Shown here: in pieces, positions 17,155-64,000 of the stretch
Layout: every line of letters starts with the position of its first letter
How positions within the stretch are numbered: the stretch's first letter is position 1
Origin: Xanthocytophaga agilis
GTDB lineage: Bacteria; Bacteroidota; Bacteroidia; Cytophagales; 172606-1
Direction of reading: 5' to 3'
Length of the DNA stretch: 64,000 nt
NCBI RefSeq assembly: GCF_030068605.1
Contig: NZ_JASJOU010000003.1
Coordinates: 186,001-250,000 of the forward strand
The notes under the pieces: model-generated
What the model was told of the DNA's origin: nothing
Database searches by the model: none
What the model saw: only the letters and a program-made list of their open reading frames with translations
Position numbers and translations under genes: made by a program

Positions 17155-18189
17155 ATGATTCTTTTTCGTAAACGCATATATATCCTTTCTTCTATGAAAT
17201 ATACTTTCCTTTATCTTCTACTAACACCTCTACTTCTAAGTACTTCATGCAAAAAAGACGACGTTAGTGACTCCAATGCTGACTTATCAGGCATTGAGTT
17301 TAAACAGGAGATGCGAAACTTTGTACAAGGTATAAGTACTTATAGCAAAAGTATAAAAGCAGGTATGCTTATTATTCCTCAAAATGGTCATCAGATACTG
17401 ACCCAAAACGGTGAGCCACAGGGCCCTTTAGCTACTTCATACATCACAGCCATTGATGGCATAGGCCGGGAAGACCTTTTTTATGGGTATGATAATGACA
17501 ATACACCAACCAAAGCTTCAGATCAGAATGAAATGCTTCCTTTTTTGAACATAGCCAAAGATCATCAGGTAAAGGTACTCGTTACAGACTACTGTTCAAC
17601 TCAGTCCTACATGGATGATTCCTATACTAAAAATAAAGAGAAGGGATTTATTTCATTTGCGGCAGATCACCGCGAACTGGATCATATTCCAGCCTATCCT
17701 GTTAAACCGTATGCCGAAAATAATCAGAATATTACCAATTTATCAGCAGCCCAAAATTTCCTGTATGTATTGAATACGGCGTCATATACCTCTAAAGCTG
17801 CATTTCTGGATGCAGTGAAAGCTACTAATTATGATGCCATTATTATGGATTTATTCTTCAATGATATCGCCTTTTCGAATACTGAAATTCAATCTCTAAA
17901 GACAAAAGCAAATGGAGGAAAGCGACTTGTTATCTGCTATATGAGTATTGGAGAAGCTGAAGATTATCGCTACTACTGGAATGATACCTGGAAAAGCAAC
18001 AAACCAGCCTGGCTCGAAAAAGAAAATCCGGAGTGGAAAGGTAATTATAAAGTGTACTACTGGAACAAAGACTGGCAAAACATTATCTATGGAAATGATC
18101 AGTCCTATGTAAAAAAGATAACGGATGCCGGATTTGATGGTTTGTATCTCGATATCATAGATGCCTTTGAATATTTTGAAAACAAATAA
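17155..18189 (+). CDS. lipoprotein, GH114-like (TM1410-type) glycosidase
   Basis: 344 residues from the first ATG; the ATG at 17194 (MKYTFLYLLL) fits the signal peptide better. Lipobox LLLSTSC. The C-terminal half carries TIM-barrel motifs of the TM1410 / endo-alpha-1,4-polygalactosaminidase family: VICYMSIGEAEDYRYYW, WLEKENPEWKGNYKVYYW and GFDGLYLDIIDAFEYF, with conserved acidic residues after the barrel strands. Such enzymes cleave galactosamine-containing exopolysaccharide. The protein stops soon after the DIID motif, so it is at the short end for the family. Confidence 0.8.
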   Translation: MILFRKRIYILSSMKYTFLYLLLTPLLLSTSCKKDDVSDSNADLSGIEFKQEMRNFVQGISTYSKSIKAGMLIIPQNGHQILTQNGEPQGPLATSYITAIDGIGREDLFYGYDNDNTPTKASDQNEMLPFLNIAKDHQVKVLVTDYCSTQSYMDDSYTKNKEKGFISFAADHRELDHIPAYPVKPYAENNQNITNLSAAQNFLYVLNTASYTSKAAFLDAVKATNYDAIIMDLFFNDIAFSNTEIQSLKTKANGGKRLVICYMSIGEAEDYRYYWNDTWKSNKPAWLEKENPEWKGNYKVYYWNKDWQNIIYGNDQSYVKKITDAGFDGLYLDIIDAFEYFENK

Positions 18190-18238
18190 AATGCTAAACC
18201 ACCCTCTTTAGTTTTGTCTATAACTTATCCTACATGAA

Positions 18239-18511
18239 AGACTTTGTTTACTCCTACCAGTGAAGAAGAGCTATGGCTGGCTTCCGCCTGCCATTTACAA
18301 ATTGTGGCTTACGTGTTTTAAACCCATAGATAAAAGCCGGATGGGATCGAAGCTGATCGTCATTTAGTTCGGTCCGACTCCAGAAGAAAACCCAATCCAG
18401 ACGATTATTCCAATGGGTGTTACATCCATTGAAGGGGAAACGTATCCCGAGGATTTTGATTATCGATTAGTGGATTTGTTAATGAATGATTTTTGGCCGG
18501 TTTTATACCCT
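18239..18511 (+). other. possible degenerate coding remnant
   Basis: One forward frame reads WLPPAIYKLWLTCFKPIDK ... KLIVI-stop-FGPTPEENPIQTIIPMGV ... EDFDYRLVDLLMNDFWPVLY. The composition is protein-like, broken by a stop at about 18375. No family is recognised and no start is evident. It could be chance. Confidence 0.25.
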
Positions 18512-18550
18512 GCCAAGAGGGCCAGCAACAACTGTTCTGGCCCTCTTGGC
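18512..18550 (+). terminator. strong hairpin
   Basis: A perfect 14-bp stem, GCCAAGAGGGCCAG / CTGGCCCTCTTGGC, with an 11-base loop, followed by TACCACCCTTTTTGG. Probably a transcription terminator for the GH114-like gene or for the vanished gene before it. Confidence 0.55.
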
Positions 18551-18650
18551 TACCACCCTTTTTGGTCAACATTGATAAGTCCCCCTGAACATCGAGGATA
18601 ACGAGAAAGGCGGTGGAAATACACTTTGCTCCCCACATCCGGTATATGTT

Positions 18651-18770
18651 TGCCTTGATTTAGGCTGTATAAACCGTCGTTAGGTGTAGTCTTCTGACTC
18701 TGCCGTGGCGGACAGATACGACTTTGCAGGCAGGTAGTCTCTGACTACCCGACGAAGACTAATCAAGGCA
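18651..18770. repeat. nested palindromic element
   Basis: A 120-bp block bounded by a perfect 10-base inverted repeat (TGCCTTGATT / AATCAAGGCA) with inner complementary pairs: AGTCTTC / GAAGACT and the perfect small hairpin GGTAGT-CTCTG-ACTACC. It would fold into a branched structure. It may be an RNA, a terminator-like structure or a tiny mobile element. No second full copy was noticed. Confidence 0.4.
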
Positions 18771-18790
18771 CTGCCCGCACACTGTAGGCA

Positions 18791-18987
18791 CAAGCCGATG
18801 CCTTATCCTGTCCCAGAACTTTTTCAATTTTGAAGGCCTTAGGGAAAACCTCTCTTTTTTGACCTTACACCTTTTTTGTCCTCCTGAAAGGATCTCTTGG
18901 CAAGACCGGCGGCCTTTCCGACTGGAGAGTAATTCTCTCAGGAAGGAAAAATGTCTCTATTTGTCACAAGTTTCTTTCAGAAGGACA
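18791..18987 (+). mobile_element. MITE-like inverted-repeat element, copy 2
   Basis: The core (18877-18987, 111 bp) starts TGTCCTCCTGAAAGGATC and ends with the imperfect inverted partner TTTCTTTCAGAAGGACA. Inner blocks GGCAAGACCGGCGGCCTTTCC-like and CTCTATTTGTCACAAG are shared with copy 1. The 86 bp before it (18791-18876) also align with the sequence before copy 1 (TTTTTCAATTTTGA and neighbours). It lacks the palindromic insert present in copy 1. Confidence 0.7.
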
Positions 18988-25278: not shown

Positions 25279-28200
25279 CTACTGTACGACAACGCGCTGA
25301 ATGGAAGTACCTTTATTGGTATGAATATGGAGCAGATACATACCCTTAGGCTTAGCCTGCATATTCAGTTGTACAGCCTGGCTGTCTGTAGCAGAGAGGC
25401 TTACAGTCTCTAACTCACCAAGCAGGTTATAGATTTTAACCTGCTCAATACGCAAAGAGGCATCTACCGACTGAATCCATACCTGACTCTGGGTAGGATT
25501 CGGATACAGGCTCAGCTTGCCTTTCAGGGCATCCGGTTCAGAAGCCATTACCTTGTCAATAATCGAATCATCCAGTTGATTGGCAGGGTTAATTATCTTA
25601 GGCACATCATACATTACGTTCGTTGTTGTATTGGTACGCACCGGATCGTTGTAGTCAAAGAAGATGTCAGCATAATTCTCAATAAGAGTCCTCTCTGGTA
25701 GATTAGCTTTTGGTTTGATTGAGAACTGAATAAATCCGTTGCTGCCTGCCTGATCACGGGTGCTATCGGGTAGGTTAATATTATAAAATGTCCAGGTTAG
25801 TACAGGTTGTCCTTTGCCACTTACTTTCAGTGAATAGGTATGTGAGGCAGCTCCTATTTGCAGCGTGGCTATATCCAGATTTTCAGACAAGGTATCTACT
25901 ACCACCACTTTATAGGCATAATCAGTTCCGGTATTCTGGAAATGAATGGTATACTTCAACTCTGTATCTGTTGGTGTATAATGGTCATTGGCAGTTCCTG
26001 CCGGACTTACCTGTTTGTCGTTGGGATCAAACGAATCAATGATTGGCATACATTGAATGGCTACCTCGGGCTCGATATCATCCTGTGGCAGTATATCTAC
26101 CAATCCTTTGCTCACTACATCACTAGTAGAAGCTATACACCCCTCAATAGTGAGATTGGATTGGGATTTACGTGGGTGATCCGGCCGCTGGTCAGCTTCC
26201 AGACGAATGGTTTTGCCATTGGCAGGTATTTTTAACACCAAACTATCTCCTGTTATTAACTTATAGTTCTTCCGAAAAGCTAACTGAGCATCCAGCAATA
26301 TTCTAAACTCAGCACTATCAGCCATTGACTGTCCGATGTTTTTAATCACCATCTGTACCCGACCATTCCCCACGCACTTACCTATTAGTATAATATCCGA
26401 CTTATCCCATTGTGAATTTGCGGGTAGCGTAGCGGTATACTCATTTGGAGGAGTAATCCAGACTTTGGTACATTGTGTCAGTCCGGTAATATTAGCCACG
26501 CATGCTACCGAATCCATGATATAAATACTGCCTGACTGGTTAGGTTTCAGACTATCAATACTAAACACATAGTTGTTATCTGCATCAATAGTATATGGTT
26601 TGTTAGCGGACTTAAAAATAACATACTGAGGCAGTTTTACATATACCTTCACATTGGTAGCAGCTATATACCCAGTGTTGGAATAGGTAACAGCCATCAT
26701 GCTGGTAAAGCATCTTCGGCGACGATCTGAATTTACAGATACTTCCAGATGAGGCACATCAATAACCGTGTTGGCAAAGTTGATACCGGTTACCTGGTCT
26801 TTTTCCTTAGCTACTGTAACCGATTCGGATACGTTGCTGGCAGGACACACAGGTTGTAGCAATATCTTGTCTGCATTGAGTACCTGGCTCACTGTATACG
26901 TTCCTACAGGCACTGGTATCCGATAGTTGCCTAATTTATCTGTGCTGGCATAATATTTACCAGGATTCGCTACTACTGTAATAGATGGAATCCCTGCATC
27001 TGTGTTGTCAAAGCCACAATTCTGATTTCTGTCAGCATAGATTTTACCACTGATATACGATTTTTGATCTGTACTGTACACAAAAACACCTGCTTTAGGA
27101 TTTGTCCAATAGACATCTCCCTCTTTACTCACAGCAAGCTCAGTAGGCATACAGTGTGGAATATCTATTTTAGATAACAATCTTCCTGTAGAATCCAGCT
27201 TTTGAATACGATAGTTATCACTATCAGCAATCCATACATTATCTTCAGAGTCTGTTGTTATTCCTATAGGATAAGAGAACTTTCCATCTGTAATCCCACC
27301 TACCTTTAACAAAAAATTGCCATTCGTATCAAATTTTTTGATATTATTTGAAGAATAATTCGTTACCCAAATATTTCCCTGTCTATCTGTTGTAATCCCA
27401 TAAGGCATCTCTTGCACCTCATCCCCATAATATTTAGTTGCCAGTAAAAACTTGCCAGTCGAATCAAATTTCTGAATTGTAAGATTGGTGAGATCTGTAA
27501 TCCATACATTTCCCTGAGGGTCTACCGCTATTCCACCTGGAGAATAAAGCTCTCCAATGAGAATTCCTACATGACCTATCCTTTGTAAAAACTTACCATT
27601 GGAATCAAATTTTTTAGCACACCAGTTGCCTATATCTGTAATCCATACATTCCCTTGAACGTCTGTTGTGATACCATAAGGATTAGTTAGGTGAAGAGGA
27701 TAATCACCAGGTGCAACAGGATCAAATGAAAATAAGAAATTACCTTCTACATCAAATTTCTGAATACGATGATTACTACGCTCTACTACCCATGTATTAC
27801 CTTGTTTATCCACTGCAATCCCCCGTGGAGATATAAAATCGCCATCTTTTGATTTGGGATATATATAGTTGCCAATAAAATTTCCAATATTGTCAAACTT
27901 TTGAATACGATTGTAATGATAATCTGCTACCCAGACAGTACCATGATTATCGATAGTGATTCCACGTGGGTCATAAAATGTATCATTCTGTGAGCCAAAA
28001 GATATAACTGTGGATATCACGAAGCCATTTTTGTCAAATTTCTGAATACAATTCCACAATTGATTTATAATCCAGACATTATCTTCCTTATCGATTACTA
28101 CGCCCCAGGGATCGATTACCCGGTTATTATCCCCTATGAAATTGGTAAGTTTGAGCAGAAATTTACCAGTTGGGTCAAACTTCTGCATACATCTGCTCCC

Positions 28201-28800
28201 GTAATTTGCTACCCAGACATTTCCCTGACTATCTATGGCCAAGCCGGTTGGAGTGTGTAATTGTCCATCTCCATCTCCATATGAGCCGAATCTTACTAAA
28301 AATCTGCCAGTTGGATCAAACTTCTGGATGCATGAGTTTCCTCTATTGATTACCCAAACATTCCCTTCAGAGTCCAGCGTTATTTTGCCTGGGTTGTTTA
28401 ACTGCCCATTACCATTTCCTTTTGAATCAAGTTTAAGTAATACATTTCCAAGCGCATCCAATTTGGTTATCTGGTTATTATAGCCATCAGTCACCCAAAT
28501 ATTGCCTACTGCATCCAAAGCTATATATTTTATCAAGTCTGTGTATGCATATATCTTTGATGTCTTATTAGCAGCAACAATAGTAGAATAATAACCTCCA
28601 TCTGGATCCATCTTTACTACAGAACCATTATCACTGGAAACATATACAAAGCCTTGTTTATCTACGGCTATATCATTTGGTGCATCTATAGCCATTTTCC
28701 CTATAGTCCGTTTAAATGTATACTCCTGGCCCCATCCTGAAACAGAGAATACAATAGTAACAAGTATAAATAAAAGAGTAACTTGTAAAGTTTTCATCAT
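25279..28800 (-). CDS. giant NHL-repeat T9SS cargo protein
   Basis: About 1173 residues from the ATG at 28800 (an upstream in-frame ATG at 28821 precedes a poorer signal). Order: signal peptide; about eleven NHL-type beta-propeller repeats (GNVWVTD ... IQKFD-x-x-G-x-F-L) over the first half; an SdrD-B-like domain (GKIYADRNQNCGFDNTDAGI); a repeated-strand region; a DUF11/DUF7619-like domain (FDPNDKQVSPAGTANDHYTP, IHFQNTGTDYAYKVVVVDTL); and a T9SS sorting domain beginning LSLYPNPTQSQVWIQ and ending GTSIQRVVVQ. It is probably exported through T9SS and surface-bound or released. Its central and C-terminal DUF domain is paralogous to that at 61686-64000. Confidence 0.92.
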   Translation of the reverse strand: MMKTLQVTLLFILVTIVFSVSGWGQEYTFKRTIGKMAIDAPNDIAVDKQGFVYVSSDNGSVVKMDPDGGYYSTIVAANKTSKIYAYTDLIKYIALDAVGNIWVTDGYNNQITKLDALGNVLLKLDSKGNGNGQLNNPGKITLDSEGNVWVINRGNSCIQKFDPTGRFLVRFGSYGDGDGQLHTPTGLAIDSQGNVWVANYGSRCMQKFDPTGKFLLKLTNFIGDNNRVIDPWGVVIDKEDNVWIINQLWNCIQKFDKNGFVISTVISFGSQNDTFYDPRGITIDNHGTVWVADYHYNRIQKFDNIGNFIGNYIYPKSKDGDFISPRGIAVDKQGNTWVVERSNHRIQKFDVEGNFLFSFDPVAPGDYPLHLTNPYGITTDVQGNVWITDIGNWCAKKFDSNGKFLQRIGHVGILIGELYSPGGIAVDPQGNVWITDLTNLTIQKFDSTGKFLLATKYYGDEVQEMPYGITTDRQGNIWVTNYSSNNIKKFDTNGNFLLKVGGITDGKFSYPIGITTDSEDNVWIADSDNYRIQKLDSTGRLLSKIDIPHCMPTELAVSKEGDVYWTNPKAGVFVYSTDQKSYISGKIYADRNQNCGFDNTDAGIPSITVVANPGKYYASTDKLGNYRIPVPVGTYTVSQVLNADKILLQPVCPASNVSESVTVAKEKDQVTGINFANTVIDVPHLEVSVNSDRRRRCFTSMMAVTYSNTGYIAATNVKVYVKLPQYVIFKSANKPYTIDADNNYVFSIDSLKPNQSGSIYIMDSVACVANITGLTQCTKVWITPPNEYTATLPANSQWDKSDIILIGKCVGNGRVQMVIKNIGQSMADSAEFRILLDAQLAFRKNYKLITGDSLVLKIPANGKTIRLEADQRPDHPRKSQSNLTIEGCIASTSDVVSKGLVDILPQDDIEPEVAIQCMPIIDSFDPNDKQVSPAGTANDHYTPTDTELKYTIHFQNTGTDYAYKVVVVDTLSENLDIATLQIGAASHTYSLKVSGKGQPVLTWTFYNINLPDSTRDQAGSNGFIQFSIKPKANLPERTLIENYADIFFDYNDPVRTNTTTNVMYDVPKIINPANQLDDSIIDKVMASEPDALKGKLSLYPNPTQSQVWIQSVDASLRIEQVKIYNLLGELETVSLSATDSQAVQLNMQAKPKGMYLLHIHTNKGTSIQRVVVQ

Positions 28801-29050
28801 AGAATAAATACAGCAATTCAATTACAAAAGTAGCTAAACAAATACAACGTTTTATGGCAACTACAATTATTTCCTATTTTTACAGAGAACTTTTGTCTGG
28901 AAATAGATAGAAGTGAGTTAACCTGGTAGTGGTGAATGGAAAGAAAGTAGTACGTAGATTTGACGAAAGGTAATTCTGTCGGAATGTATTCACAGGTCCA
29001 ATGATGATACTATACAAATCAGCGAAGCCCCATCAAACCAATTAAAAGCG

Positions 29051-35935: not shown

Positions 35936-36364
35936 ATGAAACCAAGACTCAACGTATTCAAACACAAAACATTACCTGCTTTTACCCTTACAGAATTACT
36001 CATTGTACTGGTAATAGTAGGAATTCTCATTTTGCTGGCGTTACCTGTACTGATGCCACTGATTAGTAGGACACGCAGCCTGGAAGCCAAACAGGCACTG
36101 AAACATGTATATACTCTTGAGAAAACTTACTTCTACGAACATGCCAAATATAGTTCGAGTGTAGAAGCCATTGGCTTTGAAAGCGAAAAGCTTTCGACAG
36201 AAGTAGAGGGGGGCAAAGCAAACTACAGAATAGAAATCGTAGATGCATCGGTAAACGGATTCACAGCTCGTGCTACAGCTGTAGTAGACTTCGATGGAGA
36301 TGGACAAATGAATGTCTGGGAAATGGATAACAACCAGAATTTACGGGAAGTAACACCTGACTAA
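35936..36364 (+). CDS. gspG: GspG/pilin-like major pseudopilin
   Basis: 142 residues from the ATG at 35936. Type IV prepilin signature: basic leader, cleavage expected between Ala15 and Phe16 in LPAFTLTELL, Glu5 of the mature protein present, then a hydrophobic helix (LLIVLVIVGILILLALPVL). The globular part has helix AKQALKHVYTLEKTYFYEHA as in GspG/PilE-type pilins and a C-terminal loop matching the EF-hand consensus (DFDGDGQMNVWE, residues 118-129), consistent with calcium-stabilised GspG folds. First gene of the operon; the processing peptidase is next. Confidence 0.88.
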   Translation: MKPRLNVFKHKTLPAFTLTELLIVLVIVGILILLALPVLMPLISRTRSLEAKQALKHVYTLEKTYFYEHAKYSSSVEAIGFESEKLSTEVEGGKANYRIEIVDASVNGFTARATAVVDFDGDGQMNVWEMDNNQNLREVTPD

Positions 36365-36416
36365 TCATTGAACACAAATTCTGTAACACCAACTCTGTTC
36401 CTTGCTTTCATCCGTT

Positions 36417-36932
36417 ATGACTATTGCCCTGATAGTATTATTACTGCTCACTTTCTGGCAGGATATGCGCAGCCGCATACTTAGTGTATGGCTATGGGCT
36501 GTCATGACAGGTATTGTCATAATCATTCGCTTTGCAGATGCAGGAAATGGCGTACTAGCTGTAGGGTATGAGATGGGTATAAATGTTTTGATTATCTTCT
36601 GGCAACTCTTCTTTTTAACACTGTATGTATCTGTAAAGAACCGAAAGCTCACGCAACCTGTAGGTCAATTTCTGGGATTGGGCGATGTATTTTTCTGGAT
36701 CGTACCCACCTTGTTTTTCACACCTGTATCTTTTCTGATTTATTGGGTTTTCAGTTTGCTGTTTGCGCTGGCAGGGCATTTGATTTTTCGTTCGCTGTTG
36801 TCAGCAACGTATCCATCTACTGTCCCTTTGGCAGGCATGCAGGCATTGTGTATGGCAGGCTATGTTGGCGTTAGCAAACTTGATCCTACGCCACTCTTTG
36901 CTTGTCTTCAGATAGGAGGTCAGCATGCATGA
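36417..36932 (+). CDS. prepilin peptidase (A24 family), peptidase domain only
   Basis: 171 residues from the ATG at 36417 (a TTG five codons earlier is also in frame). An integral membrane aspartyl protease with the two expected catalytic aspartates: Asp16 in FWQDMRSR and Asp90 in the GxGD motif FLGLGDVFFW. It lacks the cytosolic zinc-binding N-methyltransferase domain of PilD/GspO, as in short archaeal and many Bacteroidota versions. It would remove the leader from the adjacent pseudopilin. It overlaps the ATPase gene by 8 bases, indicating translational coupling. Confidence 0.88.
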   Translation: MTIALIVLLLLTFWQDMRSRILSVWLWAVMTGIVIIIRFADAGNGVLAVGYEMGINVLIIFWQLFFLTLYVSVKNRKLTQPVGQFLGLGDVFFWIVPTLFFTPVSFLIYWVFSLLFALAGHLIFRSLLSATYPSTVPLAGMQALCMAGYVGVSKLDPTPLFACLQIGGQHA

Positions 36933-38406
36933 GTCTGTAGACAAACGAGCGGGAGATAGCGGCGTATTTCTCAAAGTTCCGGCAGAGATGATGCAGGTGC
37001 TATCTGCTGCACAGGTATGGCATTATCGTATCCTGCCTAAGGAATTACAAGGGTCTACGTTATATATATATGCCGATGAAAGTAGATTTGATTCTTCAAC
37101 AGAAGAAGAATTAGAGATGGTTTTAGGCCAGTCAATTAAAGCTGAATGTGTAGAAACATCACTGATTGAAGAAGCCTTACAACGATATTTCCCTACTACA
37201 CAAGTATCTGACGCTAAACAATCCAGAGGCTCTTCGGCTATAACCTCCAAACCCGATACGGAAGGAGAAGCTTTTCTGATGCAACTCATTCGGGAAGCCA
37301 AAAGCCTGCGCAGTTCAGATATTCATATCGAATCGTATCAGCAGAGGGCACGTATCCGCATTCGTATTGATGGGATGCTGGTAGAACGGTATCAACTGGA
37401 AAAGCATGAATATCCGGCTCTGATTAACCAGATCAAGATTATGTCCAATCTGGATATAGCCGAAAAACGTCTGCCTCAGGATGGACGGATTTTCTATCAT
37501 CAGGGAGAAGATCGCTTTGACATCCGGGTATCTGTGTTACCTACTTTACATGGAGAAAAGGTGGTAATGCGTATTCTAAGTCAGGATGCTACACGTATAG
37601 ATATTCAGGTCCTGGGTTTTGAACCACAGGATCTTCGTCGCTATCTGGAAGGGATACGACGACCCACAGGTATGATGCTGATCAGCGGTCCTACAGGTTC
37701 AGGAAAAACCACAACCTTGTATGCAACGCTTAAGTTGCTCAACAAGGAAAGCCGTAATATTCTGACCATTGAAGATCCTATTGAGTATACCCTGGAAGGT
37801 ATCAACCAGGTACAACTTAAGGAAAATATTGGCCTGGGCTTTGCCGCAGCCTTACGGACATTTCTGCGTCAGGACCCGGATGTGATTATGGTGGGTGAGA
37901 TACGGGATACGGATACTGCCAACATGGCTATTCGGGCTGCTCTTACCGGACACCTGGTGCTCTCTACTATCCACACCAATTCGGCATGGGGCACTGTGTC
38001 ACGTCTGATCGATATGGGGGTGCCTCCATTTCTGGTAGCCAACACACTGCATACATCCGTAGCTCAGCGACTTGTCAGGTTGCTGTGTCCGGATTGTAAA
38101 CAAAAAGAATCTTTTGAAGAAAGTATGTATCCTCCTGGTTTTGTAACAAACAAACACATAACACACCACTTTATACCCACAGGCTGCTCCCGGTGTCATC
38201 AGACAGGTTTCAAGGGTCGTAAAGCTATTTATGAGGTGATCCCAATGGACCATGAACTGGCAACCTATGTAAAGGAAGGAAAAATGAATGCAGACGATCT
38301 ATTATCAAATAAACAAGTTAAAACTCTGGCAGAAAATGCCTTTTCGCTTTTTGAAACAGGACAAACCTCTCTGGAAGAGATATACCCGTTGTTATTGAAT
38401 TACTAA
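36925..38406 (+). CDS. gspE: GspE/PilB-type secretion ATPase
   Basis: 493 residues, normal length for GspE. N1E-like domain (about 1-110), then the catalytic core: Asp box (DIHIESYQQRARIRIRIDG near 132-150), Walker A GPTGSGKTT (255-263), Walker B DPDVIMVGEIRD (317-328), His box GHLVLSTIHT (342-351) and the zinc tetracysteine C388-x-x-C391 ... C421-x-x-C424 typical of assembly ATPases. It hydrolyses ATP in the cytoplasm to drive pseudopilus growth. Its stop overlaps the secretin start (TAATG). Confidence 0.95.
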   Translation: MHESVDKRAGDSGVFLKVPAEMMQVLSAAQVWHYRILPKELQGSTLYIYADESRFDSSTEEELEMVLGQSIKAECVETSLIEEALQRYFPTTQVSDAKQSRGSSAITSKPDTEGEAFLMQLIREAKSLRSSDIHIESYQQRARIRIRIDGMLVERYQLEKHEYPALINQIKIMSNLDIAEKRLPQDGRIFYHQGEDRFDIRVSVLPTLHGEKVVMRILSQDATRIDIQVLGFEPQDLRRYLEGIRRPTGMMLISGPTGSGKTTTLYATLKLLNKESRNILTIEDPIEYTLEGINQVQLKENIGLGFAAALRTFLRQDPDVIMVGEIRDTDTANMAIRAALTGHLVLSTIHTNSAWGTVSRLIDMGVPPFLVANTLHTSVAQRLVRLLCPDCKQKESFEESMYPPGFVTNKHITHHFIPTGCSRCHQTGFKGRKAIYEVIPMDHELATYVKEGKMNADDLLSNKQVKTLAENAFSLFETGQTSLEEIYPLLLNY

Positions 38407-40457
38407 TGAAACCAGCGCTATTACCGAAAAAATTGTTTACCCGAAAGTTACTTACTGAAAAATTATATACAGGCATTTTATCCTTATTACTTATTCTGTT
38501 ATACAGCTTGGTAGCCACATCCCTGCAGGCACAAGACCCAAATAGAATACGACAGGAAAGGGAAAAATATCTTTTTCAGGTAGAAAATCAATTGAGAGCC
38601 TTATCAGACTCTCTGGTCCCTGGATTACGGGAAGTTGCCTCTCTGACCGTTTCTGAGGCTTCTCTGGGTGACTTCCTTCGTGGACTTGCACAAACACACC
38701 GACTTAATATCAGTGTAGAGCCAGGACTGGACAATAAGGTGACCAACAACTTTACAGGTGTAAAAGTACAGGATCTGCTATTGTTCCTTTGCAGGGAATA
38801 CAATTTGGATATTCGTTTTACAGGAACGATCATGGCATTTTCACGCTATCAGCCTCCTGCAGAGCCTAAACCCACGCCTCAGGTCAGAATTCCACAGATA
38901 CAATATGATATTTCAAATGACCGACTTGTGGCAGACCTTGCCAATGATAGCCTTCCTGCCGTAGCCCGACAACTCACCCGGCTTAGTAAGAAAAATGTGG
39001 TACTGGCTCCTGGTCTCAATGGAAAAATGGTAAGTAGCTATATCGAAGGAATGCCACTGGAAGCAGGTTTGGATAAGATTGCGTATGCAAACGGATTGCG
39101 TCTGGTAAAGACTTCCGATAATGCCTATTTATTGGAAGGCAATGATAGTCCAGCAGCTGCCTCAGGATCACGAAACCGTCTGGGTCAGAACGGACTGGTG
39201 TCTGCAGGATATCCGTCTAACCGCCAAGGAAATGGAGGTGGCGGAGGTAACAATGCAGACAATCTGTTTATCGATGTAAAACAAGGTCCTGATGGGAATC
39301 AGTGGCTCACGGTAGATGCATCCGGAGTGCCTATTGTAGACATTATCAATGAAGCCTCTTCGCGGTTAAATATAAACTATGTTCTTTTTTCCAATCTTCC
39401 AGGCAATACCACTGTGCGACTTCAGAATGTACGATATGATGACCTGCTTAGCTTTTTGCTGCAGGGGACCAGCCATACAATGAAACGGATGGATGGGATC
39501 TATCTGATCGGAGAACGCAACCTGGAAGGATTTCGGAATACACGTTTAGTTAAGATGCAATTTCGTCCGGCAGATAAGATAGATGAGGTTATTCCTCCTG
39601 AATTGAAAAAGGGAGTTGATATTAAAATCTTTAAAGAACTAAACAGTGTCATCTTATCCGGGGGATTGCCACAAATTGAAGAGATTACCAACTTTCTGAA
39701 AGCCATTGACCAGCCTGTACTCAATGTACTGATTGAAGTTATTGTCATGGAGGTCAACAAGTCTTTCTCTGTAGAGACAGGTATCAGTGCATTACTCTCC
39801 GATTCGACTAAGAAGACAGGTGGAACAGTATTTCCAGGTCTGGATATGACCATTGGTTCGGGAGCCATTAATAAATTTCTAAGTACCTTGTCTTCCAATG
39901 GCCTTGTCAATATTGGCAGGGTTACTCCAAACTTCTATCTTCAGTTGAAAGCGCTTGAGCAAAACAGCAATGTACAGGTGCATTCTACGCCCAAGCTCTC
40001 TACACTAAACGGACACGAAGCAACATTAACCATAGGACAGTCGGTTTATTATCTCGAGCAAACACAGAATATTACGGGAAGTGTAACAACAACTACCTCT
40101 GTTACACAAAGGTATAATAAGGTGAATGCGGATATGAGTATTAAAATCAATCCAATGGTTTCGGGTGATGAACACATTACACTGGACATAAACGCGGAAT
40201 TCTCAGACTTTACAGCCCCTACCATAGCAGGTGCTCCTCCTGGTAACGCAACCAGAAAGTTTACCTCTATGATCCGAATTAAAAACGAAGAAATGATTAT
40301 CCTGGGTGGTCTGGAAGAGGCACGTAAGTCTGCCAGCGGTTCTGGAGTTCCTATCCTTTCTCGTATACCCATCCTGAAATGGTTGTTTAGTTCACGTAAA
40401 CGTGAAAGAAGTGACAAACGCTTGTTGATATTCATTAAACCGACCCTGATGTATTAA
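38406..40457 (+). CDS. gspD: GspD/PilQ secretin
   Basis: 683 residues. Signal peptide (LLSLLLILLYSLVATSLQAQ), several N-domains including an STN-like one near residues 80-140 and a further N1-type repeat around 330-400 (NTTVRLQNVRYDDLLSFLL), a glycine-rich linker, then the secretin domain with VLNVLIEVIVMEVNKSFSVE and the conserved LLIFIKPTLM end. It forms the multimeric outer-membrane channel. It is the fourth gene of the operon. Confidence 0.93.
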   Translation: MKPALLPKKLFTRKLLTEKLYTGILSLLLILLYSLVATSLQAQDPNRIRQEREKYLFQVENQLRALSDSLVPGLREVASLTVSEASLGDFLRGLAQTHRLNISVEPGLDNKVTNNFTGVKVQDLLLFLCREYNLDIRFTGTIMAFSRYQPPAEPKPTPQVRIPQIQYDISNDRLVADLANDSLPAVARQLTRLSKKNVVLAPGLNGKMVSSYIEGMPLEAGLDKIAYANGLRLVKTSDNAYLLEGNDSPAAASGSRNRLGQNGLVSAGYPSNRQGNGGGGGNNADNLFIDVKQGPDGNQWLTVDASGVPIVDIINEASSRLNINYVLFSNLPGNTTVRLQNVRYDDLLSFLLQGTSHTMKRMDGIYLIGERNLEGFRNTRLVKMQFRPADKIDEVIPPELKKGVDIKIFKELNSVILSGGLPQIEEITNFLKAIDQPVLNVLIEVIVMEVNKSFSVETGISALLSDSTKKTGGTVFPGLDMTIGSGAINKFLSTLSSNGLVNIGRVTPNFYLQLKALEQNSNVQVHSTPKLSTLNGHEATLTIGQSVYYLEQTQNITGSVTTTTSVTQRYNKVNADMSIKINPMVSGDEHITLDINAEFSDFTAPTIAGAPPGNATRKFTSMIRIKNEEMIILGGLEEARKSASGSGVPILSRIPILKWLFSSRKRERSDKRLLIFIKPTLMY

Positions 40458-40487
40458 GCAGTTTCGGATTGTAGTCAATTTATTTGT

Positions 40488-41717
40488 ATGAAAAAATTAC
40501 CAGACATACTCACTCCTCCCCGTCAGGCAGGAGGTATTGCACTGGTCCGTGCAGATGACGGACAATGGATGGGGTATGGCTTAGTATTGCAACAACAGAA
40601 GGGCGTCATTACTATTCAGAAACAATGGCAGGGACTGATTCAGGATGTTGCATTTACAGAACAAATGCCTAAATCTGTTGCCTATACACTTTGTGTGGAT
40701 GGCAAAGGTATTCTGCATAAATCTTTACCTCTTACATCCGGTAAACCTTTACTGGAGCGTATCAAAGAATCCGTTCCAGGTGTTGTAGCCAAGGACTTCT
40801 ATATACAACTTGCCGAAGGTTCGGGAAAGGATTTTGCCTCACTGATCCGCAAAGATTTACTGGACCCTGTACTTACTCAATGGCAGACAGCAGGCTTTGG
40901 CATAACAGGCTTATCATTAGGCCCCTTTGCAGCATCTATTCTGGCCACAATTGTATCTGATTCAGCTAATAACCTGCCTACTGCCTGTCAGGTATTGAAC
41001 ATCCAGGATGGCAGGCCATATGCCTTATATCCTTTAGCACAGGCAGAAGCGACCATTACAATTGGAGAGGATATAATAGGGCGAGAATGGACTACAGCTT
41101 ATGCAGTCGCCTTTCAGACATTACTGACAGGCAACGTAACCCCTTTTGCTGAGTCAGAGTTTATTTCTGCTCAGCAAAAGCAGTGGAAATACCGAAAACG
41201 TTTTGAAACTACAGGTAAAGGTATACTAATAGCTATATTTCTGGGACTTTTACTCAACTTCTTTCTTTTTCAGCATTTTCAACAGGCAGCATCTGTACTC
41301 GAAGAACAGGTAGGTCACCAGATGGAATCTTCTGAACGACAGAATGTATTAGTAAAGAACCTGAAAGAAAAGCGAAACTTTCTGGCTACCAGTGGCTGGT
41401 TATCCCCTACTCATCATAGCTTCTTTGCAGATACGCTGGCAGCTAGTCTGCCAGGAGGAATACGGCTAACAGAATTAAGCATCTATCCCAGAAACGAAGC
41501 CTTATCCCGTCAGGAAAAACGATCTGTGTTTACTCCGGATGTAATCCTGGTAAAAGGAGCCTGTGCAACACCGGAACCACTTCGGGAATGGATGACCATA
41601 TTGGAACAAGCCTCCTGGGTAAGTCAGGTAAGTCAACCTGGTTATCAGTACGACCAGCAAAACGGTGTAGCGATGTTCACAGTATGGATATACCTGAAAC
41701 CCTACCAAACTCCATAA
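40488..41717 (+). CDS. GspL/PilM-N-like inner-membrane assembly protein
   Basis: 409 residues: a cytoplasmic part of about 240 residues that would take the place of the actin-like PilM/GspL domain, one membrane segment (KGILIAIFLGLLLNFFLFQH, 244-263), then a coiled stretch and a periplasmic ferredoxin-like domain (LPGGIRLTELSIYP ... WMTILEQASWVSQV). This matches a GspL, or a PilM fused to PilN. It would link the ATPase to the periplasmic parts. Sequence conservation is low, so the call rests on architecture and position. Confidence 0.75.
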   Translation: MKKLPDILTPPRQAGGIALVRADDGQWMGYGLVLQQQKGVITIQKQWQGLIQDVAFTEQMPKSVAYTLCVDGKGILHKSLPLTSGKPLLERIKESVPGVVAKDFYIQLAEGSGKDFASLIRKDLLDPVLTQWQTAGFGITGLSLGPFAASILATIVSDSANNLPTACQVLNIQDGRPYALYPLAQAEATITIGEDIIGREWTTAYAVAFQTLLTGNVTPFAESEFISAQQKQWKYRKRFETTGKGILIAIFLGLLLNFFLFQHFQQAASVLEEQVGHQMESSERQNVLVKNLKEKRNFLATSGWLSPTHHSFFADTLAASLPGGIRLTELSIYPRNEALSRQEKRSVFTPDVILVKGACATPEPLREWMTILEQASWVSQVSQPGYQYDQQNGVAMFTVWIYLKPYQTP

Positions 41718-41745
41718 ATTTCAGAGAGACGATAGCAGATTATAT

Positions 41746-42318
41746 ATGTTTGAAAACCTGTTAAACTGGAAATCCTTTTCCTATCAGAAACGCTACCGCC
41801 TTTTATGGTTTGTAGTAGTGATCTTTCTATGGATTGCCTATACAATAGCCATCTCTCCTACTATCGAAGCATACCAGCATTATCAGGATCTTGCCCGCAA
41901 GGCAGCACAGGGATCTTCCGCACCAGACCAGCTAGCCCGATTACATCAGGAAATGCAGCGTGCCAATGCCTATATGGTTTCGGAAGGAGCAGACAGCAAC
42001 CGAACCGATCCTCTGCTGGCAGGCCTTACACCTCTTTGCCGCAAGTATGGTGTACGAATAGATGCGTTATTGCCGGCCAAAGAAGAACAAAAAAATAACC
42101 ATATCATTGTCACCCGCTCAGTAAGACTGCAGGGCGACTACCTTTCACTGGTACAGATTGTTCATCGGCTGGAATACGAATTGGAAACCGGACGGCTAGC
42201 CTCTGTTCAGTTTAGTGTACAGGAAGATATCTTCCATCAAAAACGAACCTTATATGCCGAATGCTTTCTGCAACAGATGTACGAACGCAAAAAATCAGTA
42301 TCTGAGGAAACTCACTAA
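41746..42318 (+). CDS. GspM/PilO-like inner-membrane protein
   Basis: 190 residues with one N-terminal membrane segment (LLWFVVVIFLWIAYTIAI), a coiled-coil stretch (ARLHQEMQRANAY) and a C-terminal ferredoxin-like domain (VRLQGDYLSLVQIVHRLEYE, ASVQFSVQED) as in PilO. It directly follows the GspL-like gene, as gspM or pilO do. It would form the periplasmic alignment subcomplex. Confidence 0.75.
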   Translation: MFENLLNWKSFSYQKRYRLLWFVVVIFLWIAYTIAISPTIEAYQHYQDLARKAAQGSSAPDQLARLHQEMQRANAYMVSEGADSNRTDPLLAGLTPLCRKYGVRIDALLPAKEEQKNNHIIVTRSVRLQGDYLSLVQIVHRLEYELETGRLASVQFSVQEDIFHQKRTLYAECFLQQMYERKKSVSEETH

Positions 42319-42341
42319 TTACATTGACATCAAGCTTTATC

Positions 42342-43322
42342 ATGAAAAAAACATATAATGCGATTACTTATTTACTGAACTTCCACACTACCTATATACT
42401 GCCAGCATTTCTTATAAGCTGTGTATGTATGGTAATGGGTTGTGACGAGATTTTTGAACAGGACATTACCAACAAGAAAGTAGTCTTGATGGCTCCTGCC
42501 GATAGTGCAGCCTCCGTTAAAGTAACCCAGACCTTCCGCTGGCAAACATTGGAAGGAGCCCGACAGTATCGTCTGGAAATAGGTTCACCATCCTTGCTTG
42601 AGGCCTCTGATTATTTCATAGACACAACAACCTCAGCTACCTCATTGCGTCTCGTACTTCAGCCTGGACGCTTTGAATGGCGCCTTACAGCTTTAAATGC
42701 GGGTTATACTTCCCAATCAGCAGAGCGGTATCTTCGCATTGATACATCTTCTGACCTGGGTCAACAAAGTTTCCGTCTGCTTTATCCTGCCAACAACAGT
42801 ACTCAGGGAAGTAATGCCATTACATTTCAATGGGAAGCGCTACCAATGGCTGATAGATATGTATTTGAACTGGATGGAGAAACTATTGATACCTTATCAT
42901 CGAATAGATTTATTAAAACCTTTGCTACAGACTCACGCAGTTATTCCTGGCAGGTTACAGCCCTGAACGCTAAATCCAGCAAGGCAGCAGATCAGGCATT
43001 TACATTCTCTATCGACATGAGTAATCCAACAGCCCCAACTCTGGTGAGTCCGCTGAGCAATGCAACATTACAAAACCTACCTGTCACACTGAGCTGGCAG
43101 CGAGGTGCTACTGCGGTTGTACGGGATAGTGTCTACTTATATACCAATGCACAGACACTTATCACAGGTTATCCCAAAGCGGTTACAACCACATCCTATC
43201 AAATCACATCTTCTACTACCAACCTTGGTGCAGGCACCTATTATTGGGCAGTGAAGTCAGTGAGTACCAGTGGTAAAGCCAGTAGTTTGTCAGAAATGCG
43301 AAGCTTTACCTTATTATTTTAA
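42342..43322 (+). CDS. lipoprotein with three fibronectin-like modules, inside the T2SS-like operon
   Basis: 326 residues from the ATG at 42342 (a TTG at 42324 is also in frame). Lipobox VMGC, then three repeated beta-sandwich modules: each starts with LMAPADSAA / LLYPANNST / LVSPLSNAT and contains a W-bearing strand (TFRWQTLEGARQYRLEI, TFQWEALPMADRYVFELDGE, TLSWQRGATAVVRDSV) and a closing Y/F-W-x-V strand. It could be a secretin pilotin or partner, or a substrate. No T2SS lipoprotein of this type is familiar to me. Confidence 0.8.
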   Translation: MKKTYNAITYLLNFHTTYILPAFLISCVCMVMGCDEIFEQDITNKKVVLMAPADSAASVKVTQTFRWQTLEGARQYRLEIGSPSLLEASDYFIDTTTSATSLRLVLQPGRFEWRLTALNAGYTSQSAERYLRIDTSSDLGQQSFRLLYPANNSTQGSNAITFQWEALPMADRYVFELDGETIDTLSSNRFIKTFATDSRSYSWQVTALNAKSSKAADQAFTFSIDMSNPTAPTLVSPLSNATLQNLPVTLSWQRGATAVVRDSVYLYTNAQTLITGYPKAVTTTSYQITSSTTNLGAGTYYWAVKSVSTSGKASSLSEMRSFTLLF

Positions 43323-43334
43323 ACAGGACTTGCC

Positions 43335-43859
43335 ATGAAAAATAAAAAGATGATGTTCGTGCTTCTTCCGGCAGTTATTCTGATATGGGGCCTTATCATT
43401 TATCGCATTGTAGATGCTGTACAGGAAAAGGATGTACCTGATACATATTCAGAACCTAACAGAAAACTTCATACTTCTACGACTACTCTTCCAGATACAG
43501 TACATTTACTGGTCAACTATCGTGATCCTTTTCTGGGATCAGGACCTGCTAGAATCCGGAGAGAGCCTTCACCCTCTATAACTTCTCATCCAGCACAGGC
43601 AACGAGTTCGATCCAGGCAGTACATAGCAGTACACCCACTGTACCTGCCCCCAAAGTAGTTATAGCCTGGCCAACTGTTAAATATGTAGGTATGATTCAA
43701 AATGGAAGCTCTCAGATAAAGATTGCTATTTTAAAGATTAATGGTAAAAGCCACCTGATTGCAGAGTCTTGTAGTGAAGCAGATATTACTGTGCAAAATA
43801 TAGTACAGGACTCAGTAGGCTTGCAGTATCGGGGTGAACACAAATATTTTAAACGGTAG
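43335..43859 (+). CDS. GspC/PilP-like periplasmic protein
   Basis: 174 residues: one N-terminal membrane segment (FVLLPAVILIWGLIIYRIV), a proline-rich linker and a C-terminal homology-region-like domain. NYRDPFLGSG, then WPTVKYVGMIQNG, AILKINGKSHLIAE and VQNIVQDSVGLQYRGE match the plan of PilP and GspC (DPF motif; Y-x-G-x-I ... A-x-L-x-x-x-G; V-x-x-I-x-x-D-x-V). In T2SS this protein couples the inner-membrane platform to the secretin. It is the last gene of the operon, 12 bases after the lipoprotein gene. Confidence 0.75.
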   Translation: MKNKKMMFVLLPAVILIWGLIIYRIVDAVQEKDVPDTYSEPNRKLHTSTTTLPDTVHLLVNYRDPFLGSGPARIRREPSPSITSHPAQATSSIQAVHSSTPTVPAPKVVIAWPTVKYVGMIQNGSSQIKIAILKINGKSHLIAESCSEADITVQNIVQDSVGLQYRGEHKYFKR

Positions 43860-61685: not shown

Positions 61686-64000
61686 TCATTTGAGTATTAT
61701 CTTTCGGGTAACAGTTCCTTTGTCAGTTTTCACCAAAATCAGATACAATCCAGTTGCATTTCCAGACAAATCCACTTCGTATTTTGAAGTTATTGCAGTA
61801 ACCTTTTCAGATAATATGCGTTTGCCTATATTATTAAATATTTCAATCTGTTGCATTTGAGCCATAGACTGAGAAAGATCAATAGCCACCTTTCCGTCGG
61901 TTGGATTTGGAAATATAACAATCACATCATCCCATTCTGCATTATCCCGTACAACAAAGTTGGTACTACTTATCACAGAACCAGTTGGAGTGGTTACTTG
62001 AATTTTGTCTGTGGCAGCTCCTTCCGGAATTCGAATTACCAGTTCGGTTTCACTGGCCGAAATAATGTCTGCCTCCTTTCCATAAATAACTACACGATTA
62101 TCAGAAGCAGTTGACTGGTAGTATTTTCCGGAAATGATAACCTGAGTTCCTACAAAGCCCGTAGCAGGATAAAAAGAAGTAATGACAGGTAAAAGCGGTA
62201 CAAAATCTTTCTCGCTGATTGCTGTGCCCCCCTCCGTAGCAACACTTACCTTTCCTATTGTTACTCCTGTTGGTACAGTAATCACCAATTGCGTTTCGGC
62301 TGCAGATACGATACTTACTACCATACCATTGATTTTCACAGTATTCTGATTGGATATTGGATTAAAATTCATCCCTGTAACCAGAATCTGCTCACCCACC
62401 TGAGCCTCTTCCGGAGCGAAGGCTGTGATAACAGGCTTGAATAAAATAACCAATTCAGATGGACTTATAACACTACCACCACGTGTAGTCAACGAAACTT
62501 TACCATCAGTTGCATTTTCAGGAGTCACCACAGTAAGCTGTGTAGCTGTTGCTGTCAATACCTGCATAGGAATATCATTAATCTTTACCAAATTATATTC
62601 TGCAACACTTTCAAAGTGAATTCCAGTAAGTATAATCTGATCACCTCGATGTGCTTTCGCCGGGTTTATGCCTGTAATAACAGGAGGTTGGAATACTACC
62701 AAATCGGTAGCACTCACAGCTGTTCCTGCAGGGGTAGTTACACTAATCCTGCCTGTTGTAACCTTTGATGGGAGAGCCACCACTAACTGAGTTTCAGAAG
62801 CAGATATGACAACAACAGGTATTTCATTGACCTTAACAATATTATCAGTGGGAACAGTCTGATAATGGTTTCCGGTTAAGGTAATCTGTCCGCTCAACTT
62901 CGCACCTTCAGGGGTAAAACTGCTGATGGTAGGCTTCTGCTGCACAATAGTCTTCTCATTTAGCTGATTTTGTTTGTCTATTACAGGTGGTACATCATAT
63001 ATGACGTTTACCGTTGTATTCGTACGCACAGGTTCATTATAGTCAAATATAATATCAGCAAAGTTCTCAATTCGGACCTTTTCAGGCAGGTATACTTTTG
63101 GCTTAATGGTAAATTGAATAAATCCGTTGCTGCCTGCTTGATCACGAGTGCTGTCGGGTAGATTAATTCCTGCAAATATCCAGGTAAGCACCGGACGACC
63201 TTTACCACTCACTTTAAGTGTATAGCGATGAGAATAAGCTCCCATCTGCAGAGTGGTTATATCCAGATGTTCAGATAATGTATCAATTACAGTAACGGCG
63301 TACGCTGTATCTGTTCCTGTGTTTTGAAAGCGAATCACATACTTCAGCTCAGAAGCTGAAGGCGTATAATTGTCTGAAGGTGTACCGGCAGGGCTTACCA
63401 ATTTGTCGTTTGGATCATAGGAATCTACAATTTGGAGGCATTCACTAGCTACTTCAGGTTCAGCATCATCCTGGGGCAATACAGCTACATATCCTTTGCT
63501 AATTACATCACTCACAGAGGCTACACAGCCTTCAATAGTCAGGTTAGTTTGAGATTTGCGCGGATGTCCGGGTCGCTGATCAGCCTCAAGACGAACCGTT
63601 TTACCATTGGCTGGTATACGTAATACCAGACTATCACCAATCGCAAGTTTGTAGTTTTTGCGGAAAGATAGCTGGGCATTTAATAGTATTCTGAACTCCG
63701 CACTATCAGCCATTGTTTTTCCTGTATTTTTAATCACCATCTGTACACGACCATTCTCTATACATTTACCAGTAAGTAAAATGTCTGACTGGTCCCAGGG
63801 TGAATTCTCAGGTAAGGTATAGCTATTGGCAGGGGTAATCCAGGCTTGGGTACAGGCTGTCATACCCCGAGCCTCGACAACACAAGCTATGGAATCCGTA
63901 ATCTGAATAGCACCGGTTTCCTTTGCTTTTAATGTTCCAATTGTAAAAACATAGTTCTTGTCTTTATCAATAGTATAGTCAACATTTGATGACTTGAGAA
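61686..64000 (-). CDS. large T9SS cargo with DUF11-like and IPT/TIG domains (partial)
   Basis: Runs off the window at 64000 (5' end missing), since the frame stays open upstream of the ATG at 63863 (VDYTIDKDKNYVFTIGTLKA). Order in the visible part: the same repeated-strand/DUF11-like region as in 25279 (WITPANSYTLPENSPWDQSD; DSYDPNDKLVSPAGTPSDN; YVIRFQNTGTDTAYAVTVID), then four IPT/TIG immunoglobulin-like domains of about 80 residues (ITGINPAKAHRGDQIILTG, ITAFAPEEAQVGEQILVTG), and a T9SS sorting domain beginning VIVFPNPTDGKVAIDL-like and ending GTVTRKIILK. A surface or secreted adhesin-like protein. Confidence 0.9.
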   Translation of the reverse strand, partial: LKSSNVDYTIDKDKNYVFTIGTLKAKETGAIQITDSIACVVEARGMTACTQAWITPANSYTLPENSPWDQSDILLTGKCIENGRVQMVIKNTGKTMADSAEFRILLNAQLSFRKNYKLAIGDSLVLRIPANGKTVRLEADQRPGHPRKSQTNLTIEGCVASVSDVISKGYVAVLPQDDAEPEVASECLQIVDSYDPNDKLVSPAGTPSDNYTPSASELKYVIRFQNTGTDTAYAVTVIDTLSEHLDITTLQMGAYSHRYTLKVSGKGRPVLTWIFAGINLPDSTRDQAGSNGFIQFTIKPKVYLPEKVRIENFADIIFDYNEPVRTNTTVNVIYDVPPVIDKQNQLNEKTIVQQKPTISSFTPEGAKLSGQITLTGNHYQTVPTDNIVKVNEIPVVVISASETQLVVALPSKVTTGRISVTTPAGTAVSATDLVVFQPPVITGINPAKAHRGDQIILTGIHFESVAEYNLVKINDIPMQVLTATATQLTVVTPENATDGKVSLTTRGGSVISPSELVILFKPVITAFAPEEAQVGEQILVTGMNFNPISNQNTVKINGMVVSIVSAAETQLVITVPTGVTIGKVSVATEGGTAISEKDFVPLLPVITSFYPATGFVGTQVIISGKYYQSTASDNRVVIYGKEADIISASETELVIRIPEGAATDKIQVTTPTGSVISSTNFVVRDNAEWDDVIVIFPNPTDGKVAIDLSQSMAQMQQIEIFNNIGKRILSEKVTAITSKYEVDLSGNATGLYLILVKTDKGTVTRKIILK

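Follow-up and report, generated by a model that had tools for sequence, protein, structure and literature searches.

A 64,000-nucleotide stretch of the Xanthocytophaga agilis genome (9.77 Mb), hereafter the window (contig C3, NZ_JASJOU010000003.1, 186001-250000), contains eight co-directional genes of a machine resembling a type II secretion system (T2SS) or a type IV pilus. These genes, termed module A, occupy window positions 35936-43859 on the plus strand (C3 221,936-229,859). Intergenic spacings range from -8 to +37 bases, confirming the compact operon with short gaps and overlaps outlined in a preliminary description of this DNA. The genes are as follows:

35936..36364, plus strand: major prepilin (GspG/PilA-like), TIGR02532 prepilin domain over cut-off
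36402..36932, plus strand: short A24 prepilin peptidase (Peptidase_A24, E 0.0012)
36925..38406, plus strand: assembly ATPase, GspE/PilB (T2SSE, 7.8e-128)
38406..40457, plus strand: secretin, GspD/PilQ (Secretin, 4.9e-40)
40488..41717, plus strand: GspL-like inner-membrane protein with a PilN-type C-terminal part (PilN in 23/30 relatives)
41746..42318, plus strand: PilO/GspM-like protein (T2SSM 0.0042, PilO 0.04; PilO in 11/29 relatives)
42342..43322, plus strand: conserved lipoprotein with FN3/Ig-like domains (alignment of 42 relatives)
43335..43859, plus strand: GspC-like protein with an N-terminal hydrophobic stretch, an invariant DPF and a putative HR-type C-terminal part

Searched singly against Pfam and NCBIfam, the ATPase and secretin of the window have firm identities, the prepilin and A24 peptidase weak to fair ones, and the L-like, C-like and lipoprotein sequences match no firm family. 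The gene assignments of the preliminary description proved right: ATPase and secretin by the matches above, the L, M and C proteins firmed by PilN, PilO and T2SSC or PilP domains in relatives. Chance is excluded because the gene order repeats in tens of genomes. GspF lies outside this operon, in a second module 128 kb away (module B; C3 89,360-93,693, or L003:5361-9694), which comprises, in order:

L003 5361-6224: MORN_2 protein of 287 amino acids with a long Lys-rich tail (x287)
prepilin-like protein of 419 amino acids (x419)
two short prepilins of 168 and 185 amino acids
C3 92.5-93.7 kb: GspF, 381 amino acids

The machine is a newly recognised thirteen-gene system made of two modules, A with eight genes and B with five. 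Many relatives have the modules adjacent, in either order and either orientation, and in a congener (G296) all thirteen genes are contiguous (locus L087), unlike the 128-kb split of the source genome. All of module A is present in 37 of 52 class-level loci and all thirteen families in 27, with many of these 52 stretches stopping at contig ends.

We searched for the secretin in 296 genomes of the phylum, 39 relatives and 395 genomes of the class. Matches at E<=1e-3, many of them distant, occurred in 72 of the 296 phylum genomes; 8 of the 39 relatives also had matches. The preliminary description had regarded full T2SS or type IV pilus systems as uncommon in Bacteroidota, but the secretin, carried by 62 of the 395 class genomes at E<=1e-30, is no rarity. 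One genome scored as a non-carrier, G357, has a PilB-type ATPase match at a contig start (G357:C3:811-1620) without a secretin match; it probably carries the machine but escaped detection by its secretin. We fetched stretches no longer than 20 kb and annotated 64 loci with family profiles built from proteins of the window; labels of open reading frames (ORFs) are unsure in the G+C-rich loci L067 and L068. A pattern scan of contigs for named relatives yielded two loci only. With incomplete, odd or near-duplicate rows left out, alignments retained 30/60 assigned ORFs for L, 44/50 for C, 29/56 for M, 32/62 for D, 42/62 for the lipoprotein, 36/43 for x419 and 33/40 for x287.

Secretin identity to that of the window is 44% in G296, the only same-genus carrier found, and 49% in another genus of the family; the lower value in the congener hints at transfer. 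Plasmid-labelled records from Persicobacter (two, with thirteen families each), Pontibacter and Flavobacterium jumunjinense also carry the machine (L107, L108, L109, L110). The F. jumunjinense record is linear, 11 kb long and perhaps no more than a fragment of an assembly.

The assembly ATPase, the single T2SSE ATPase of the source genome, points to the ancestry of the system. Its best NCBIfam model is PilB (487.9 bits), followed by the GspE model TIGR02533 (475.8 bits, against a cut-off of 630 bits), and both scores are below the curated cut-offs. We built a tree with 22 Bacteroidota ATPases, namely 20 of 56 long ones and two from plasmids. In it, 19 Bacteroidia ATPases make up a single clade (100/100), which lies apart from GspE and beside PilB of type IVa pili (T4aP) with support of 88/93, a value below the tool's strong-support mark; the tree contains few reference sequences, and some of its branches are long. 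The GspE phylogeny proposed in the preliminary description thus sides with T4aP PilB rather than with T2SS GspE. This grouping agrees with the available excerpts of PMC6668835, where the Bacteroidetes system clusters with T4aP, not T2SS, and is put forward as a possible secretion system of independent T4aP descent. The preliminary description would have been refuted by GspE/GspD belonging to a well-described Bacteroidota clade whose function is established, and this holds by half: the clade is known, but its cargo is not established. No PilT match (TIGR01420) exceeded the cut-off in any of the 395 class genomes, compared with 5 of 14 control genomes, and strong sub-threshold PilT-model matches coincide with the gspE places of the pseudopilus system. 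Parts, phylogeny and the lack of PilT above cut-off together argue for a T4aP-derived pseudopilus exporter. We are highly confident that this is a T4aP-derived pseudopilus machine of a Bacteroidota type, and consider it probable that it serves secretion rather than forming a surface pilus.

Glycine is the usual prepilin residue at position -1 elsewhere. The prepilin site noted in the preliminary description is present in the window's major prepilin (LPA/FTLTE), but with Ala, not Gly, at -1; the tetracysteine it had reported is also real but belongs to the ATPase, not the peptidase. By a script heuristic, Ala at -1 is commoner than Gly in four prepilin families: 38/47 for relatives of the major prepilin, and 26/34, 23/33 and 25/37 for the others. 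The C-terminus of the window prepilin has a calcium-type loop, DFDGDGQMNVWE, and a D-x-[DNS]-x-[DNSG]-G loop is found in 43 of 47 class-level relatives. Position +5 is mostly Glu in two of the three further prepilin-type families and mostly not Glu in the third, x419. This protein includes a bactofilin-like stretch (weak match in 26/36 relatives); hhalign gave no match between x419 and E. coli GspK, and its profile found weak matches only among PDB sequences. By analogy, x419 may be a GspK/PilX-like prepilin. The A24 peptidase retains GxGD in 43 of 44 class-level relatives and CxxC in 2.

The remaining parts were characterized from family alignments. Secretin relatives contain Secretin (32/32), STN (31/32), Secretin_N (30/32) and GspD_N0 (18/32) domains, and AMIN is absent from the 14 families that they match. 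A PilN domain sits at the C-terminal end of 23/30 L proteins, with none detected in the window protein alone. The N-terminal part of L weakly matches E. coli GspL (E 0.0025, probability 11.7%); its profile had no match among PDB sequences up to E 1, and hhalign against HofM gave nothing usable. The M profile matches the M. xanthus PilO structure 3jc8 (5.3e-07). C proteins contain T2SSC in 8/44 and PilP in 2/44, match V. cholerae GspC (2lnv) weakly (E 0.012) and share a D-P-F that is invariant across the 44 aligned sequences; their hydrophobic N-terminus was judged by eye. The lipoprotein gene adjoins M and/or C in 45 of the 48 class-level loci that have it. Most parsed rows (42/50 parsed) have a mature end of the form C-x-D-[IF]-[FI]-E-x-[DN]-[IL], after which come FN3-like domains; the window protein has three of these and the 114-amino-acid form of L042 has one; Y_Y_Y and Big_13 matches occur in 25/42 and 23/42 relatives. 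We dropped the lipoprotein profile count (62) as a number of true members, some ORFs being RHS or other FN3-rich proteins (for example, L091 17099-18181, L109 6292-7269 and L099 1-5548), and relied on the 42-row alignment and the adjacency count instead. Finally, x287 has MORN_2 repeats in 29/33 relatives plus the Lys-rich tail, and adjoins x419 in 32 of 34 loci holding both.

We found that genomes with the machine almost always encode RHS proteins. Across the 395 class genomes, 61 of the 62 carriers have an RHS core (TIGR03696), as do 140 of the 333 non-carriers (Fisher 2.3e-19), and the sole RHS-negative carrier, G522, is 78% complete. The association holds within the 17 families having both kinds of genome (53/54 carriers versus 46/113 non-carriers; Cochran-Mantel-Haenszel 2.5e-11), was equalled in none of 20,000 stratified permutations and runs in the same direction in all genome-size bins.

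RHS genes also lie close to the machine. We assembled a linkage set of 63 carriers, comprising 53 of the 62 class-sample carriers and ten from the phylum and relatives samples, in which counts are lower bounds and RHS places are those among the matches listed. RHS cores occur within 15, 25 and 40 kb of gspD in at least 27, 38 and 40 of these genomes, against upper-bound expectations of 3.2, 5.2 and 8.2, and the 38 linked genomes span at least 19 family labels. In 24 carriers with a listed place for the type IX secretion system (T9SS) gene sprA, RHS cores lay within 25 kb of sprA in 0 and of gspD in 13, again among the matches listed (G595 entered with 17 of its 33 RHS places). Of 68 loci, 27 have RHS-like ORFs within the flanking sequence that was fetched. 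The source genome is outside the 38 because its RHS genes lie by module B: two RHS/YD-repeat proteins are encoded directly behind it on the minus strand (L003:11042-17173 and 17293-18942). The 128-kb stretch between its modules holds 3 of the 23 RHS cores of the genome among the matches listed (0.30 expected; P 0.004, simple Poisson).

As for the appearance of the linked proteins, a Sec-type signal was judged by eye to be present at the start of 21 of 24 ORFs longer than 1000 amino acids, drawn from 20 further stretches plus L003 with its LamG-like ORF excluded. A two-gene set recurs in which a YD protein is followed by an RHS-core protein, and a same-strand YD protein starts 36 bases (L043) or 130 bases (L095) 3' of gspM. 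Six linked RHS/YD proteins that we scanned had RHS_repeat, DUF6443 or no family, and Por_Secre_tail, the T9SS tail, was found in none of the six. TssC of the subtype iii type VI secretion system (T6SSiii) was present in 3 of 20 RHS-positive carriers, among them the source genome (C7:84684-85976). The preliminary description correctly placed the machine alongside T9SS, but this co-occurrence is uninformative since SprA is near-universal (62/62 carriers, 321/333 non-carriers; p 0.12). Where it proposed enzymes or surface proteins as the exported set, the genomic evidence points instead to RHS/YD-repeat proteins. A search of open-access PMC literature found no paper linking Bacteroidota RHS proteins to this machine. 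A table in the available part of PMC3482391 gives 'T2SS' as the export label for many RHS toxins, which we take to be generic and not to denote this machine.

Elsewhere in the window, positions 25279-28821 and 61686-63863 encode two related proteins, both large and seemingly secreted and one of them bearing NHL-like repeats, whose ends resemble, by eye, a T9SS C-terminal tail. No tRNA and no Rfam family was found within the 64 kb.

These observations can be assembled into a working scheme. Sec would deliver cargo and prepilins; the A24 peptidase would trim the prepilins, with Ala at -1; and one ATPase, GspF and the L/M/C platform would extend a short pseudopilus that does not retract and carries the minor prepilins at its tip. 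The pseudopilus would push folded periplasmic cargo through the secretin, which the lipoprotein probably seats or caps at the outer membrane. The RHS/YD-repeat proteins encoded nearby, the likeliest candidates, would be a main cargo, perhaps not the sole one. Presence and position statistics alone single out the RHS proteins, and linkage is not proof of export; we judge the chances of their being a main cargo to be evenly balanced. For the explanation as a whole, a T4aP-derived pseudopilus exporter with nearby RHS/YD proteins as a main cargo, we lean slightly in favour. More tentatively, the machine might be a secretion system in its own right, descended from type IV pili by a route separate from that of the T2SS and dedicated to placing RHS/YD-repeat polymorphic toxin-like proteins on the outer membrane or passing them across it; a bactofilin-like pseudopilus tip and the FN3 lipoprotein would be its own outer parts.

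Several observations weigh against RHS proteins as a main cargo. The 140 RHS-positive non-carriers indicate that the machine is not needed for RHS proteins in general. Only about half of the 27 loci have their nearest RHS-like genes running in the same direction as the machine, so the two are not co-transcribed as a rule, and we found no preference of RHS genes for the machine's strand in these loci. In some loci other neighbours lie directly behind gspM, such as GIGTxxP-type proteins in L093. Secreted proteins with this motif lie beside the machine at L093 12035-14242 (31 bases behind gspM), L094 13831-14661 and L046 4186-5166, and are possible further cargo.

The main rival is shared residence of RHS genes and the machine in variable regions. 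The preliminary description rightly pointed to a T2SS-like cluster in Cytophaga hutchinsonii, a putative T2SS (chu_3191-3201) for three of whose genes mutants show defects on cellulose and in adhesion, with motility unaffected (available sections of PMC5553014). If, as suggested for that species, the machine were a general export route for enzymes and surface proteins, RHS genes would be nearby through shared mobile, variable regions, in keeping with the plasmid-borne copies, the secretin identities suggestive of transfer and the cellulose-utilisation and adhesion phenotype. However, RHS linkage recurs in at least 19 family labels, is absent around sprA among the matches listed and accompanies a co-occurrence that persists within families and genome-size bins; sprA, as a chromosomal control, excludes shared residence only in part. 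We consider a general exporter rather unlikely.

Less probable still is a surface pilus for adhesion or DNA uptake that secretes nothing. Such a pilus would accord with an ATPase on the PilB side, where the excerpts of PMC6668835 also place their Bacteroidetes representative, with the reduced adhesion of C. hutchinsonii mutants to cellulose (PMC5553014, in part) and with the bactofilin-like stretch and FN3-like domains, which would suit adhesion. It is hard to square with PilT staying below cut-off throughout the class genomes, with a C protein that is GspC-like rather than PilP-like, and with the available text of PMC5553014, which reports no pili and describes chu_3195 mutant morphology as unchanged by electron microscopy. 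Exit of RHS proteins by T9SS or the type VI secretion system (T6SS), with the pseudopilus machine serving something else, is likewise improbable: SprA accompanies every carrier, the source genome has a T6SSiii TssC and PMC7073777, as far as its available text goes, speculates on neighbourhood grounds that TANFOR, another Bacteroidetes toxin class, leaves by T9SS, but 17 of 20 RHS-positive carriers lack TssC, none of the six scanned proteins has the T9SS tail and, among the matches listed, sprA shows no RHS linkage in 24 genomes.

The linkage of RHS genes to the pseudopilus machine joins two questions, what the Bacteroidota T2SS-like machine carries and how signal-peptide-bearing RHS proteins exit without T6SS, and one gspD deletion would make both testable. 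The thirteen-gene parts list should also serve systems often annotated 'hypothetical protein' (for example, L109), as it includes three conserved extras: the FN3-like lipoprotein, the prepilin-like x419 with its bactofilin-like stretch and the MORN_2 protein.

Compared with known systems, the machine is of the kind known from C. hutchinsonii, whose cluster in Table 2 of PMC5553014, part of the available text, has the same parts in the order G-O-E-D, then platform genes, with GspF and minor pseudopilins; module B of the X. agilis genome is, in contrast, split off by 128 kb. In that table one locus tag of the platform run is skipped in C. hutchinsonii, F. johnsoniae, P. heparinus and O. splanchnicus, and the tag numbers alone suggest that it sits where the lipoprotein lies here. 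The available sections of the paper name no lipoprotein, MORN_2 or bactofilin-like parts and no RHS link. Like the Pseudomonadota T2SS (E. coli gspC-O), the machine has a GspG calcium-type loop, GspC-like and GspL/M-like proteins, one ATPase, I/J/K-like minor prepilins and a secretin with GspD_N0 in 18/32 relatives. It differs in an ATPase outside the GspE clade, no recognised GspH gene and Ala at -1, and adds the FN3 lipoprotein, the MORN_2 protein and the bactofilin-like prepilin. With the T4aP it shares an ATPase nearest PilB and PilN and PilO domains, but it has no PilT above cut-off, lacks a stand-alone PilM gene in the loci mapped and has secretins without AMIN. RHS proteins are known to be delivered chiefly by T6SS in Pseudomonadota. 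The linked proteins resemble Bacteroidota RHS/YD-repeat polymorphic toxins in their RHS cores, RHS_repeat and DUF6443, and, unlike in the Pseudomonadota route, 17 of 20 carriers encode them without T6SSiii.

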